Shown here: one piece after another, positions 22,801 through 39,235 of the stretch | Layout of the letters: each line of letters opens with the position of its first letter | Position numbering within the stretch: the stretch's first letter is position 1 | Source of the DNA: a virus | Virus record (IMG/VR): IMGVR_UViG_3300027708_000012 | Location: 281,370-345,369 of that record | DNA length: 64,000 nt | Reading direction: 5' to 3' (one strand) | Program-made: the position numbers and the translations under genes | Notes under the pieces: generated by a model | The model's database searches: none | What the model saw: only the letters and a program-made list of their open reading frames with translations | Told to the model about the DNA's origin: nothing

Positions 22801-23203
22801 TATCGTTTTCCTCGTCTTCGTCTTGGTTCTCCAATTGTTCAACAATCAAATCAAGATTATAAATTCGATTTTTACTAATTAGACCGTATGGAGTTATTTC
22901 GTCGCTAGTTATGTAGCTTGCATTAGGTTGGGCAATAATAAAAGTAACAAATTTTTGTGTAATGCTGTCACAGTTATCCACATCTACTATTACACAATCT
23001 GCTTGTTGGCATATACTTAAAAGCCAACCAATATCATTATCATCAGTGTCATAGATAAAAACATTTAAATCATCGATGCTTTTACTTAAAATTGTTTGAA
23101 ATTGTTCTTTAACTGATGTACTAGGTTTAATTAGTAGATAACTCAAGTTCATATTAAACAGTTTATCAGGAGGCGTTATTAATGTTATTTTTCCTAAGTT
23201 CAT
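22781..23203 (-). CDS. Conserved T4-like phage protein of unknown function
   Basis: The 140-residue protein starts [16 protein letters not shown], a pattern I associate with conserved uncharacterised proteins of T4-like cyanophages, and continues with [30 protein letters not shown]. The C-terminus is very acidic ([14 protein letters not shown]). The ATG at 23203 overlaps the upstream frame. No catalytic motif is seen. Confidence 0.65.
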
Positions 23204-23510
23204 ATATCTTTTCTGCAAAATAGTCTAGTTCTTCCGTGGGGTAATCGTTAAATTTCGTAGTACCAGTTTTTATATCATTTATAAACTTAACTAACTCGGG
23301 TTCTGTTTTAGAATCAAATATTAAATTGTTAAATTTATTTTCACTATATTCTATATACAATCTGTCTATTGTTTTAAATGGATCTGTGCGACTAGTATTT
23401 TTTATACGTTGCCAAAAACTTTTTGGATCTTTTTGCTCTTCGTTCTGAACATATGTTATTCTTTGTTCTTCACTTGGATTTTCCCCGTTTGATCCTTGAT
23501 CATATATGTC
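23166..23510 (-). CDS. -1 frame extension of the 24604 membrane protein
   Basis: This frame is open from the slippery site at 23510 to a stop at 23166 (114 residues) but has no ATG with a ribosome site: the only candidate near its middle is a TTG at 23360 without one. It is polar and predicted helical ([35 protein letters not shown]). It joins the upstream membrane-protein frame by a -1 shift at A AAA AAG. Read through, the fusion would be about 479 residues. A homopolymer error in the assembly would give the same picture. Confidence 0.6.
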   Translation of the reverse strand, partial: DIYDQGSNGENPSEEQRITYVQNEEQKDPKSFWQRIKNTSRTDPFKTIDRLYIEYSENKFNNLIFDSKTEPELVKFINDIKTGTTKFNDYPTEELDYFAEKIYELRKNNINNAS

Positions 23511-24604
23511 TTTTTTTTTGATTCTTCTTCGACTTTTGTTTCTTCGCCGTTACTATTAATATATGTTTCACCAACAGCTAAACGTTCTTCAATTGTAGAC
23601 TCTTCTAGTTTAACTTCTTCAACTACGATTGGTGTTTGATCTAATTCACTAATTACAACTGTTGAATCTGCCGTTGTAGTATTATTTGGTACTTCAAATT
23701 CTGGACCAGTTTGTATCCACTCACCACCAGGTTCTCGGACACCTTCAAAGTCTGTTTTAGTTTCTTTAGATTCCTCTACTACAATTGGAGCATTGAAAGC
23801 TTCAGTTAATTCATCTGCTTGATCATCAATCCATGTTTTTTCTTTTTGTTCTCTAGCCCAACCAAATGTCATTTGTGCGGCCAATAGCATGATAACTGCC
23901 AGCGGATCAAAGACAACAACAATTAAAATGATGATCCAAGTTACAGCACGTTCGAGCATCGACTCGTCTGGTGCTCGATCGTAGATAAATGCCGCGATAT
24001 ACTTAATTGGGCCAACTTCGGCTTCGACCTTGCGTACTTCTGCACGTATTGGGGCCGCTTCGTCGTTAAGACTTGCAATAAGTTTCTGTTGGGCTTCAAT
24101 ATCTTTGGCAAGCGCAATGCGGTCTTTCTGTTGACTCTTACGTACAGCGTTGGCTTTGTCCGCACCTTTTTCATCTGTTGAGCGACCCATAATTTGGTCC
24201 ACCGCTTCATCCATCTGTTTAAGTTGCTTCCTGTCAGCTTCGATATTCTCTTTGGCTGTTTTGATTTTCTCATCATATATCGCTATCTTACTTCCAACAT
24301 CACCACTTACTAGTGTTTGATCATTGTGTGCTTTAGAGAGGAATCCGAAGATACCCATTGATGTAATTAACATTAACACAACTACAGCAATGGTCATGTA
24401 ATACTTCATGAAACGTGGAACACGTTCCCAATTTGCTTTTAACCAAGAGGCACAAACAAGTTTACCTACTTCCAGGGCAGAGCCCATGATAATAATCGGA
24501 ATAGCGGCAGCAGAAAAAATAGCGGTGAGACCTACTACGGAATAGTAAATCGCCACCGCTGAGATTGTTAATCCTGTAAGCAGAAGCAAATAAGCTAATA
24601 TCAT
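23456..24604 (-). CDS. Multi-pass membrane protein with coiled coil
   Basis: The 382-residue zero-frame product has three N-terminal membrane helices (about 1-25, 28-50, 65-90), a long charged coiled coil (about 105-200), a further helix near 225-245 (IIILIVVVFDPLAVIMLLAA) and an acidic disordered tail. The pattern resembles uncharacterised membrane proteins of T4-like phages. After codon 365 the frame continues for 17 residues to TAA, but the -1 frame continues much longer. Function unknown; possibly an inner-membrane component. Confidence 0.7.
   Translation of the reverse strand: MILAYLLLLTGLTISAVAIYYSVVGLTAIFSAAAIPIIIMGSALEVGKLVCASWLKANWERVPRFMKYYMTIAVVVLMLITSMGIFGFLSKAHNDQTLVSGDVGSKIAIYDEKIKTAKENIEADRKQLKQMDEAVDQIMGRSTDEKGADKANAVRKSQQKDRIALAKDIEAQQKLIASLNDEAAPIRAEVRKVEAEVGPIKYIAAFIYDRAPDESMLERAVTWIIILIVVVFDPLAVIMLLAAQMTFGWAREQKEKTWIDDQADELTEAFNAPIVVEESKETKTDFEGVREPGGEWIQTGPEFEVPNNTTTADSTVVISELDQTPIVVEEVKLEESTIEERLAVGETYINSNGEETKVEEESKKKTYMIKDQTGKIQVKNKE
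23510..23521 (-). promoter_or_regulatory. Candidate programmed -1 frameshift site
   Basis: The minus strand reads TCA AAA AAA AAG in the zero frame, containing the strong slippery heptamer A AAA AAG. Seven bases later is a small hairpin TGATC-AAG-GATCA. The same 12 bases recur in frame at 38258-38269. Confidence 0.6.
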
Positions 24605-35407: not shown

Positions 35408-37129
35408 TTAATTGGTATATACCGTTGCCGAATATGAGTAGTTAAGTTTGCCTTGGTCATTTTGTAACGTATTGGTGTAATAGATTGCAACACTGGCAAT
35501 TACTTGACCTACAGCGCCAGTGTACACGTTGCCGCGAGCATCCAAAAATTTTCCATAAAATGCTAATTTTGTAGATACACCAAGCGCAGTATCAACTCCT
35601 GCAAAATCATATTCATCACTTAGTTGCAAATACTTTTGATTAATATCTGTTGATAAGTGTATAGAACCTGTTCTGGTAAAGTTTCCTGTTGTTATACTCT
35701 TATACACATAATTAATTTTATACGATGCGCTACCAGTTACAATTCCATATGCATCAGTAGAGATTGGTAATCTAAATGCTAATACATTGTTTTGCTGTCC
35801 GAGATCTAGTTGTTCTACACCAAATGAACTATAAGAAACATTACCCGAGACAACAGGAATATATCGAGTGGTTAAATTGAAATTTGATAAATTGGCGCTA
35901 CGGTCACTTTGATTGTTTTCAACGCTATTATTTGTATTTTTAAAATAAATTTGTGGGTATATTGCAAATGCGTTTCCTGCATTGTTATTTCCAACATCGT
36001 ATAATTTACAATTAATAACAGTATTGTATGTACCTCTTTCTATGTATACAGCTTGTTGTTTTACTTTATAAAATTTTACACTAGAAATTGTTGTTTGTCT
36101 TGGACCAAATTGTTCTCCAGTGCTACTACCGTCTGATCCTACGCCAAATGCAAATCCTTGCAATGCGTCATTAACTAAACAATCTTCAAAAGTATTGTTA
36201 AGTATATCTTGTTTGGCTAGTACCGCTGTAGTAACATTTAAAAATTGAATATTTTTAAATATATTATTAAGACATGTAACCACATTGCTCAATGCATTCA
36301 TTGACATGCCAATGTTTGTACTGTTATATGTTGTATAGTTTGATGTATTACCGGATATTTTTATATTTTCAAAACTACTATCTCTTACAGCATCTAGTTG
36401 CATTCCTGAATTTACACCAGAAGGTAAACTTATTGTGATATCGTTAAGTTTAATATTTCTAGGTTGATTTGTAGATTGAGAACTGGAAATTACACTTGCT
36501 ACAGATATTGTAGTAGTATCATTTACAAATCGAAACGCTGATAAAGTATTTCCTGTCGCTGGGAGAAATTTAATAATTGTTTTATCGATTCCCGACCCAA
36601 CAATTGTTGCAAAACTTGGAATGTATACAGGTCTAGTAATTAAATAAGTTCCCGGTAGGATCATTAAAGTTAATCTTGACAAGATTCCGCTACTAGTAGT
36701 AGAATGAGCTAAATTGCTTGGATTTAAAAATAACTGATAGATAGCATTTTGTAACGCATCTGTATCGTCAGTTATGCCATCGCCTATCATTCCAAAATCA
36801 GCACTTGTAATCTGATCGTCTAGCCTTGTTTGAACTGATCTAAATATTGGGCTACTTGCGTCAGCACCAGTGATTATTGTAGAATCACCTTGTTTATAAG
36901 AATATTGTGTTAACGCTAATAAGTTACCCTCTGCCTTTAAATCATTTAAAGTTAAGAGGCGAGTATTTCCAACAGCTGGCGCACCTTCTGCAACACTACC
37001 GTTGCCAATGTATAATTCTTGAGTGTCTACAGCCCATGCCATTTCTCCGCTGGCTAGCTGTGGAATTCCAGTACCCTGTTTGGCCTGGCCGCGTCGTATT
37101 TGAATTCTTGCAATTTGAAAAACAGCCAT
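35408..37129 (-). CDS. Tail spike with pectate-lyase-type beta-helix
   Basis: The 573-residue protein starts with a fibre-attachment module (RIQIRRGQAKQG, LASGEMAWAVDTQELYIGNG) shared in form with two other fibre genes here. From about residue 105 it has DFGMIGDGITDDTDALQNAI, the start of the pectate lyase superfamily beta-helix used by tail spikes, then Asn-rich coils (ENIKISGN, NTFEDCLVND, NTVINCKLYD). It probably binds or cleaves a surface polysaccharide. AGAGGAT precedes the ATG. Confidence 0.85.
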   Translation of the reverse strand: MAVFQIARIQIRRGQAKQGTGIPQLASGEMAWAVDTQELYIGNGSVAEGAPAVGNTRLLTLNDLKAEGNLLALTQYSYKQGDSTIITGADASSPIFRSVQTRLDDQITSADFGMIGDGITDDTDALQNAIYQLFLNPSNLAHSTTSSGILSRLTLMILPGTYLITRPVYIPSFATIVGSGIDKTIIKFLPATGNTLSAFRFVNDTTTISVASVISSSQSTNQPRNIKLNDITISLPSGVNSGMQLDAVRDSSFENIKISGNTSNYTTYNSTNIGMSMNALSNVVTCLNNIFKNIQFLNVTTAVLAKQDILNNTFEDCLVNDALQGFAFGVGSDGSSTGEQFGPRQTTISSVKFYKVKQQAVYIERGTYNTVINCKLYDVGNNNAGNAFAIYPQIYFKNTNNSVENNQSDRSANLSNFNLTTRYIPVVSGNVSYSSFGVEQLDLGQQNNVLAFRLPISTDAYGIVTGSASYKINYVYKSITTGNFTRTGSIHLSTDINQKYLQLSDEYDFAGVDTALGVSTKLAFYGKFLDARGNVYTGAVGQVIASVAIYYTNTLQNDQGKLNYSYSATVYTN

Positions 37130-37149: not shown

Positions 37150-37157
37150 TATTTATC
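37150..37157 (-). promoter_or_regulatory. T4-type late promoter GATAAATA
   Basis: Twenty bases before the tail-spike ATG, overlapping the stop of the nuclease gene. Confidence 0.65.
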
Positions 37158-37872
37158 AGTTCTGTTTGTAGTACTGCTCCACACGTTGCCACCATTGATC
37201 TTCCCAGTAGCTAAAATCCTCAGGTTTTAGGATAAATTCCTGGTAAGCAGGTTCTCCCCATACCATAGGCGTAATTTCTGGCGGTTTTACACACATTAAT
37301 ACAACACCTTTACGTATGTTTGTACCATATATTTTATTATGTGCCAGTGCATAAGCTGTTAGCTGTAAGTAGTACCCAGTAATCCACTCTAGTTTTTTAG
37401 GTTTATTAGTTTGCTTGTAATCTAGAATAGACTCTTCATTCATGTGTAGACCGCAACCGTCAGAAGTTCCTGCATATAAACCCGGATAGTATAAGGGTAC
37501 TTCAACACCCCATACTTCGTTTACATTTACCAACCCTTGTTCAATAACATGTTTAGCCATTTTGTGACTTTGTACACTATAAGGGTTTGAGCCAGGATCT
37601 CTTAATATGCCGTCTTTAACATAGTCCTCAAGATACTTGTGCATTCGTGTTCCACGATTAGCAGCTTCTGTAGTAATCTCTTGTGCTTTCTTTTCACCCA
37701 CAGCACGTCTCCATGCTTGGAGTGCGGCTTTTTCTTCTTCGGGTTTAGTTTTGTCTAGGATGGTAGTAACGCTAGGAACTTTACTACCATCTGGTGTCGC
37801 ATATAAGCGTTTGCCTTCTACACTTTCTCTACTAATAGAGGTGTAGGAATATCGTTCGTTGAGTAAAGTCAT
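37156..37872 (-). CDS. PD-(D/E)XK exonuclease (Cas4/RecB-like)
   Basis: The 238-residue protein has PSVTTIL at the N-terminus, a helical region ending RGTRMHKYLEDY, then AGTSDGCG and ILDYKQTNKP, the D-x(n)-D/E-x-K core of RecB/Cas4-type nucleases, followed by YYLQLTAYALAHN (QhxxY motif). Such nucleases are common in T4-like cyanophages and act in DNA recombination or repair. A strong sigma70 promoter indicates early expression. Confidence 0.85.
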   Translation of the reverse strand: MTLLNERYSYTSISRESVEGKRLYATPDGSKVPSVTTILDKTKPEEEKAALQAWRRAVGEKKAQEITTEAANRGTRMHKYLEDYVKDGILRDPGSNPYSVQSHKMAKHVIEQGLVNVNEVWGVEVPLYYPGLYAGTSDGCGLHMNEESILDYKQTNKPKKLEWITGYYLQLTAYALAHNKIYGTNIRKGVVLMCVKPPEITPMVWGEPAYQEFILKPEDFSYWEDQWWQRVEQYYKQN

Positions 37873-37907: not shown

Positions 37908-38258
37908 TTATTTGAGTTTATCAGAAACAGCGTTCATTGCTGACTGATGAATTTTATTTGGTTTAGGTTTGCCTTGCTCGGGTTCGAGTTCTTCGCCTTT
38001 GGTGTTAATAACAACACCCTGGCCGTCAAAACGAGCAACTAGTTTTTTAATAACAGGATCACTTTCCCAACGTGCGGCAAATCTATCATAATCGATATCT
38101 GGTGCGCCGTAGTTTTGTCCTGCTTGATTAAGTGCGTCCCAAGTCATAGGAGCGTCGATATGAGAATCACTGTCTGCACCTTGGTTGTTGGCGCTAGATT
38201 GTAGAGCCCTTAATGTTAAAATTAAGGGGTCTACGCTTTCTCTAATAGATTGAATTAC
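37908..38258 (-). CDS. -1 frame extension of the 39235 virion protein
   Basis: The frame is open from the slippery site at 38258 to its stop at 37908 (116 residues). Its first in-frame ATG (38147) lacks a ribosome site. The part before that ATG reads like protein (SIRESVDPLILTLRALQSS) and the part after it is MTWDALNQAGQNYGAPDIDYDRFAARWESDP. A -1 shift on A AAA AAG joins it to the upstream gene to make about 442 residues. A homopolymer miscount in the assembly is the alternative. Confidence 0.6.
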   Translation of the reverse strand, partial: VIQSIRESVDPLILTLRALQSSANNQGADSDSHIDAPMTWDALNQAGQNYGAPDIDYDRFAARWESDPVIKKLVARFDGQGVVINTKGEELEPEQGKPKPNKIHQSAMNAVSDKLK

Positions 38259-39235
38259 TTTTTTTTTGAGTTGAGTAGCATGCCTAGTCGACGACTGTAG
38301 TCAACACTTTCACGCTTTTCGCGGCCTGATACGCCTTCAGGGCCTGCGCCCATGTCAGCTTCGGGAGGCACTTCTGGACCTGCACCCATTGGTGCACCGC
38401 CTGCTGGAGATGCGCCAGGTAATGCTGGACCTGCACCCATTGCAGGTGCTTCTCCGCCTGAAATTAATGCCAATGCGCCTGATAAACCACCGCGGCTTGT
38501 TTCTAATGCCGCATAGATTGCTTCAAGAGCTGGCTTTACTTGTTCGGTATATTGTTGAGCAACATCGCTGCCCATTGCTTCTCTTATAGAGTCTGTTAAT
38601 TCTAAAAGCTGTTCTGCTTTCATGGCCGCTACATCTTCTAGCCAACCAGTAACACGGTCAACCATATCTTTAGTTGCCATGATAACTTCAGCTTTGTCTT
38701 CTTCGCCTTCTGCTAGATATACAATATAATTTGCTGCGTTTTCTGATAAATCATAACGTAATGTTAATTCAGCTGATAATTCTTCTTCGTCGCTTTCGCC
38801 TAATTCTACTCGCTTGATTGCGCTGTTGATCCAACTTTCTGGAACGCTGTGTTCCATGGCCTTTTCTTTTATTTTTTCAGCCTTTAGCTTTTTACGCATT
38901 TCAGCTTTTTGCTCTGCCTTTTCGTCAACGCTTTCTTCCATGCATTCGCAAGGATCTTTGTGGCAATCGCTGCACTTGCCTTCTTCACGTTCCATGATTT
39001 CTGTATTGATACAGTCTAGCATTACGCGAGTCTTTTGATAGTCAGGGCTTTCATTGATGCTATCATAGCTTTCGCTAACTTCAAACTGGCTTAACTTTGT
39101 GCGAAGTTTGTTACGTGCATCTTCTAATTGCACATCGCTAAATTGTTCTAGATTAAGTTTGTAGCCAAATTGCTTTGCTAAACTTTCGTTTAGTTTTTTA
39201 GCTGTCACTGGCTTTGATAATTCTCTTAGTTGCAT
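38255..39235 (-). CDS. T4-like virion protein with N-terminal tag
   Basis: The zero-frame product is 326 residues. It starts MQLRELSKPVTAKKLNESL, a tag-like sequence, then a Cys cluster (CSDCHKDPCECMEE), a coiled-coil and a helical domain (EVIMATKDMVDRVTGWLEDVAAMKAEQLLELTDSIRE) that resembles structural proteins of T4-like cyanophages, then a Gly/Ala/Pro repeat region. It ends SKKK with TAA directly after the slippery AAG. A late octamer precedes it. Confidence 0.7.
   Translation of the reverse strand: MQLRELSKPVTAKKLNESLAKQFGYKLNLEQFSDVQLEDARNKLRTKLSQFEVSESYDSINESPDYQKTRVMLDCINTEIMEREEGKCSDCHKDPCECMEESVDEKAEQKAEMRKKLKAEKIKEKAMEHSVPESWINSAIKRVELGESDEEELSAELTLRYDLSENAANYIVYLAEGEEDKAEVIMATKDMVDRVTGWLEDVAAMKAEQLLELTDSIREAMGSDVAQQYTEQVKPALEAIYAALETSRGGLSGALALISGGEAPAMGAGPALPGASPAGGAPMGAGPEVPPEADMGAGPEGVSGREKRESVDYSRRLGMLLNSKKK
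38258..38269 (-). promoter_or_regulatory. Candidate programmed -1 frameshift site
   Basis: Zero frame TCA AAA AAA AAG is followed at once by TAA. About 23 bases downstream is a stable hairpin, GTAGACCCCTTAAT pairing with ATTAAGGGCTCTAC (13 of 14 pairs, loop TTTAAC). Its distance is longer than usual for a stimulator. Confidence 0.65.

Follow-up and report, generated by a model that had tools for sequence, protein, structure and literature searches.

A conserved signal for probable −1 ribosomal frameshifting at the end of a virion protein gene in a giant freshwater phage and its relatives

The 64,000-nucleotide stretch of DNA analysed here, referred to as the window, lies at the end of the 345,369-bp IMG/VR virus record IMGVR_UViG_3300027708_000012. 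It carries two genes that contain the same candidate slip site (Table 1). The protein encoded by gene 1 is laid out as a helical hairpin, a flexible linker and then a C-terminal helix with the slip site at its end. Reading in the −1 frame starts at the G of the AAG codon (GTA ATT CAA and onward) and runs to a stop at position 37908. A preliminary description of this DNA had proposed the gene 1 site, the frame, a 116-codon extension and a junction of SKKK|VIQSIR, and these match the sequence. The lone ATG within the extension is codon 37, and a ribosome-binding site for it is not visible by eye, as had been stated. The hairpin claimed downstream, formed by GTAGACCCCTTAAT and ATTAAGGGCTCTAC, is also present; it spans 14 positions with one mismatch and begins 23 nt past the AAG. 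The 12-mer TCA AAA AAA AAG, said to serve two genes in the same frame register, has two exact copies in the window, where 0.04 would be expected, each of them a predicted frameshift site in that register, and the full record contains no further copy. Two further A9 runs are found in the record, at 244196–244204 and 259128–259136, and in neither case does the run lie where a long open frame stops and the −1 frame carries on.

Table 1. Features of the two slip-site genes and the conserved downstream neighbour of gene 1, in window coordinates
Feature	Position	Strand	Description
Gene 1, zero frame	38255–39235	−	326 aa, predicted virion structural protein; homologue of RaK2 ORF135 and CBB_298
Gene 1 slip site, TCA AAA AAA AAG	38258–38269	−	Zero frame contains A_AAA_AAG; in all relatives, with minor variants
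Gene 1 zero-frame stop, TAA	38255–38257	−	Abuts slip site; TAA in 58 of 58 distinct sequences
Gene 1 −1 extension	37908–38258	−	116 codons plus stop; putative winged-helix-like domain; predicted fused product 442 aa
Gene 1 stem-loop	38201–38234	−	13 pairs plus one mismatch
PD-(D/E)XK exonuclease	37156–37872	−	Conserved downstream neighbour; phrog_298, E 9e-50
Gene 2	23456–24604	−	382 aa, predicted membrane protein
Gene 2 slip site, TCA AAA AAA AAG	23510–23521	−	Conserved; about 50 loci read
Gene 2 −1 extension	23166–23510	−	114 codons plus stop

The conservation of the gene 1 site was determined in relatives from IMG/VR. A search with the 326-aa protein yielded 80 loci, of which the 77 complete ones, representing 58 distinct sequences, were examined; their gene 1 proteins are 58–100% identical in amino acid sequence to that of the window. 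In all 77 complete loci the gene ends with (T/C)CA AAA AAA AA(G/A/C) TAA, and in all 77 the −1 frame is open for 100–122 codons. The run of A residues is A9 or A10, followed by G, A or C, and the frame offset is constant. A slippery heptamer of the form X_XXY_YYZ is found in the zero frame, being A_AAA_AAG in 49 of the 58 distinct sequences and A_AAA_AAA or A_AAA_AAC in the others. Alignment-based searches recovered more gene 1 loci, the sole exception among them being a contig-end fragment with an A8 run. Because the site and the extension are kept in every relative examined, the gene 1 observation is far beyond chance.

We also scanned for exact occurrences of the 15-mer TCAAAAAAAAAGTAA, which gave at least 80 matches; the figures given here refer to the matches listed. 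Most of the 80 matches listed belong to the gene 1 family, based on the C-terminal motif and the extension. Among them are distant gene 1 relatives, whose extensions are mostly 18–50% identical to one reference, and these retain the site together with an extension of 98–128 codons. The other matches listed include some that by eye resemble shifts of the tail-chaperone type in other phages, and some unrelated ones without an extension. Genes ending with TCA AAA AAA AAG TAA and continued in the −1 frame for about 50–120 codons were seen at loci L377, L382, L388, L394, L409, L415 and L443, and some of these (for example L377 and L394) resemble tail assembly chaperones by eye.

Substitution patterns, codon choice and RNA folding were compared across the gene 1 relatives. 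Note that the selection, fold and codon counts ignore shared ancestry, and so the values that follow are strong in kind but not exact in size. The median dN/dS for the gene 1 extension was 0.32, with a value of 0.21 for close pairs, compared to 0.21 and 0.11, respectively, for the zero frame; the extension is under purifying selection. The third lysine codon of the site is AAG in 49 of the 58 sequences, although AAG makes up 32% of lysine codons in these genes, an excess that is the expectation for A_AAA_AAG. The fold 3' of the gene 1 site had a mean z of −3.09 against synonymous-codon shuffles over the 58 sequences, compared to −0.55 and −0.26 for control segments in the same shuffle test. 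Covariation in the stem was seen as 29 double-changed cells, compared to 10.8 in column shuffles (0 of 500 shuffles reached 29), and 77% of stem cells were paired, versus 29–47% when the partner was slid. These data indicate that the gene 1 hairpin is selected and covarying, and that it is present in most relatives. It is absent in one clade (L064, L070 and most of L076–L084), and among more divergent gene 1 families some have a strong fold and others lack one. The hairpin lies approximately 11–23 nt downstream of the slip site in the relatives, a spacing that exceeds that of the better-known classical frameshift cases. No Shine-Dalgarno-like stimulator upstream of the gene 1 site was visible in the relatives' sequences.

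Gene 2 supplies a second instance of the same site. Here the zero frame continues for 17 codons past the site and the −1 frame for 114 codons. Across the gene and its extension (23166–24604, − strand), 16–18 codons after the site are dual coding. Close relatives of gene 2 number in the hundreds in IMG/VR. Among the roughly 50 read, nearly all have TCA, CCA or TCT followed by AAA AAA AAG, the A-run being either A8 (TCT AAA AAA AAG) or A9. The −1 extension is 103–115 codons long in most gene 2 relatives, with a minority stopping at about 38–42 codons, and it constitutes a conserved protein family. Relatives in named phages align to the first 240–295 residues of gene 2 only, and the one Mosig copy that was read is without the slip site. 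A downstream hairpin was looked for at gene 2 and none was found (mean z −0.40); this result, together with the hairpin-less clade of gene 1, indicates that structure is not always needed. In both genes the codon ahead of the three lysine codons is nearly always TCA or CCA, with TCT in a few gene 2 relatives. Seen in two unrelated proteins, the TCA/CCA preference may reflect some constraint on the nucleotides that precede the A-run. The earlier proposal that two genes with the same site and shift direction have extended forms is supported by dozens of orthologues of each gene.

The gene 1 protein had been labelled as virion-type, and we find this label to be well founded, based on a match to a PHROG family annotated as 'virion structural protein' and on detection of the CBB homologue in virions by mass spectrometry (PMC5259590). 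The family, phrog_14154, contains RaK2 ORF135, CBB_298 and Atu_ph07 AUZ94856, and was matched by 46 of 50 gene 1 relatives. Comparison by hhalign of the gene 1 protein with RaK2 ORF135 and CBB_298 gave an E of 1e-6 over 150 columns, extending as far as the ESV motif next to the slip site. The gene 1 product would by homology be part of this phage's virion, such presence being known for CBB_298 (PMC5259590). In that study, 10 unique peptides were recovered for CBB_298 and 2 for CBB_299 (PMC5259590). Sequence searches of solved structures with either the gene 1 protein or the extension returned nothing significant.

Gene order suggests a counterpart for the extension. In RaK2, CBB, Atu_ph07 and SCTP-2 the gene 1 homologue is directly followed by a separate gene for a protein of 111–128 aa, and in RaK2, CBB and SCTP-2 a nuclease gene, which in CBB is restriction-endonuclease-like, follows the small gene. 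The order in the window is the same as in RaK2, CBB and SCTP-2, with the −1 extension replacing the separate small gene. In Salicola phage SCTP-2 (L174, 5680–7032) the two proteins are encoded by separate adjacent genes without an A-run. The extension gave no match to phrog_15050, a family of virion structural proteins that contains RaK2 ORF136 and CBB_299, either with the family model or in single comparisons. A broad alignment of extensions compared with the separate proteins gave a P of 8.7e-5 over 80 columns, and all four separate small proteins scored 2.7–3.8 standard deviations above shuffles against the extension; position and size are the same. We infer, with moderate support from these comparisons, that the extension is homologous to the separate small gene of RaK2-like phages, this support being weaker than that for homology of the upstream protein. 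The extension may also adopt a winged-helix-like fold, in which we have modest confidence: comparison with solved structures gave weak winged-helix matches only, with a best Foldseek E of 0.48 and Z up to 4.9.

The surroundings of gene 1 were also considered. The gene at 35408–37129 (− strand) has an Mtd_N domain and a pectate-lyase-like domain, and is probably a tail spike or fibre. A tmRNA gene is predicted at 1663–2106 (− strand). The gp23-type capsid gene of the record is approximately 115–230 kb from gene 1, depending on the circularity of the genome. This distance does not favour a prohead gene, and an identity as a T4 prohead scaffold is not supported, phrog_14154 having no match in T4, P-SSM2, HTVC008M, S-PM2 or Mosig in a search made without a positive control.

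We consider it likely that gene 1 gives rise to a fused virion protein through a programmed −1 shift of the ribosome on A_AAA_AAG. A ribosome that reaches TCA AAA AAA AAG would either stop at the abutting TAA, yielding the 326-aa virion protein, or slip back by one base on A_AAA_AAG and read on through GTA ATT, yielding a 442-aa protein with the putative winged-helix-like domain. The stem-loop, where present approximately 11–23 nt downstream, probably increases the rate of slipping. Points that weigh against this reading are the lack of a hairpin in one clade and at gene 2, the long hairpin spacing and the lack of a visible Shine-Dalgarno-like element, as well as the A9 run, which would suit polymerase slippage just as well. 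Since the two counterparts are separate virion genes in RaK2-like phages, the frameshift in the window's lineage would make their fusion, joining two adjacent virion proteins in a set ratio. By analogy only, the extended form may be the minor product.

An alternative is programmed transcriptional slippage, in which RNA polymerase adds or drops an A on the A9 run and the altered mRNA is translated into the same extended protein. Such slippage is known at A/T runs in bacteria (PMC6260861). Gene 1 conserves at least 9 A residues, more than the heptamer requires, and a homopolymer is conserved at the frame change in both genes (A9/A10 in gene 1, A8/A9 in gene 2); the conserved A9 and the hairpin-free gene 2 leave room for polymerase slippage. 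Against this, the selected gene 1 hairpin is still untranscribed when the polymerase is at the A-run, AAG is favoured although AAA would extend the run, A8 is tolerated in gene 2 (TCT AAA AAA AAG), and slippage of the E. coli polymerase at poly(A) was below detection in the reporter of one study. Both the bias toward AAG and the selection on the 3' hairpin favour the ribosome. We regard a ribosomal rather than a transcriptional slip as the probable event; transcriptional slippage we consider unlikely.

It is highly improbable that the extension is a separate protein, made through its own initiation or by reinitiation past the TAA like its counterparts in RaK2, CBB and SCTP-2. In other jumbo phages the counterpart stands as a gene of its own, and an early ATG, GTG or TTG occurs in the extension of some relatives, but many relatives lack all of these start codons over the extension's first 20 codons, and the invariant A-run and fixed register would be left unexplained. 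Internal start or reinitiation was rejected on the basis that no start codon is conserved among the relatives. The preliminary description had named a homopolymer error in the A9 run, with both frames really being one continuous gene, as the serious alternative; such runs are error-prone on some sequencing platforms, but the comparative data refute this and leave it almost no probability, since 58 distinct sequences, drawn from many metagenomes, share one offset, A9 and A10 followed by G, A or C with that offset exclude a miscounted homopolymer, the TAA adjoins the run in every case, selection acts on the hairpin downstream, and the gene 2 offset is kept with A8 or A9.

With programmed ribosomal frameshifting at gene 1, a single message could yield two alternative proteins, a short form and a form carrying an additional domain, in this giant freshwater phage and in its many relatives. 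The type of signal and frameshift-extended phage virion proteins are already known; the gene 1 case with its deep conservation appears to be new, no report of it having been found in the literature among open-access papers. Among uncultured jumbo phages, a large group can now be credited with a virion-gene frameshift that is strongly conserved and apparently undescribed. Such genes are broken up by gene-calling programs, which miss the fused product. Two aspects deserve attention, namely that one cassette is used twice and that RaK2-like phages have split what would here be fused. The twin sites, with and without a hairpin, offer a clean test of the requirements of A_AAA_AAG. As a tentative and rather doubtful extension of these ideas, YCA AAA AAA AAG might be a recoding cassette that a large lineage of jumbo phages employs in two genes unrelated to each other, perhaps depending on a lineage- or host-specific factor or on polymerase slippage and not on RNA structure; in gene 1 it might stand in for the pair of separate virion genes of relatives, in which case the winged-helix-like domain would enter the particle only as a fixed-ratio fusion. 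The Moraphages were considered as well; most of them are predicted to infect Bacteroidota (PMC12619734).

Comparison with known systems places gene 1 among several precedents. T7/T3 gene 10, the head protein of Lactobacillus phage A2 and proteins of Listeria phages PSA, A118 and A500 likewise gain a C-terminal extension in some of the virion protein molecules through a frameshift close to the stop codon, and in PSA, A118, A500 and A2 two structural genes per phage are extended in this way (PMC5009743). Gene 1 differs from these cases in belonging to another protein family, in having no Ig-like extension, and in that its extension appears to have a counterpart in a standalone virion gene of related phages. 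The G/GT tail chaperone of lambda likewise has two products, owing to a −1 shift that occurs shortly before the phage gene ends. The genes around gene 1, however, encode an exonuclease, a tail-spike-like protein and ribonucleotide reductase, and tail tube and tape-measure genes are not among them; an identity as a tail assembly chaperone was rejected on this basis. The dnaX-type frameshift, as is generally known, uses A_AAA_AAG in the −1 direction with a 3' stem-loop, and gene 1 shares the heptamer, the direction and the 3' hairpin. Unlike dnaX, the zero-frame stop of gene 1 abuts the site, no upstream Shine-Dalgarno element is seen, and the hairpin is more distant and not universal. The closest comparison is with RaK2 ORF135/ORF136 and CBB_298/CBB_299, where a homologous upstream virion protein is found in the same order with a small protein adjoining. 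In RaK2 and CBB these are two separate genes with their own starts and no intervening A-run, whereas here they would be joined by a frameshift, and this lets two arrangements be compared as they occur in nature, the separate production of two virion proteins in RaK2-like phages and their frameshift fusion in the lineage of the window.
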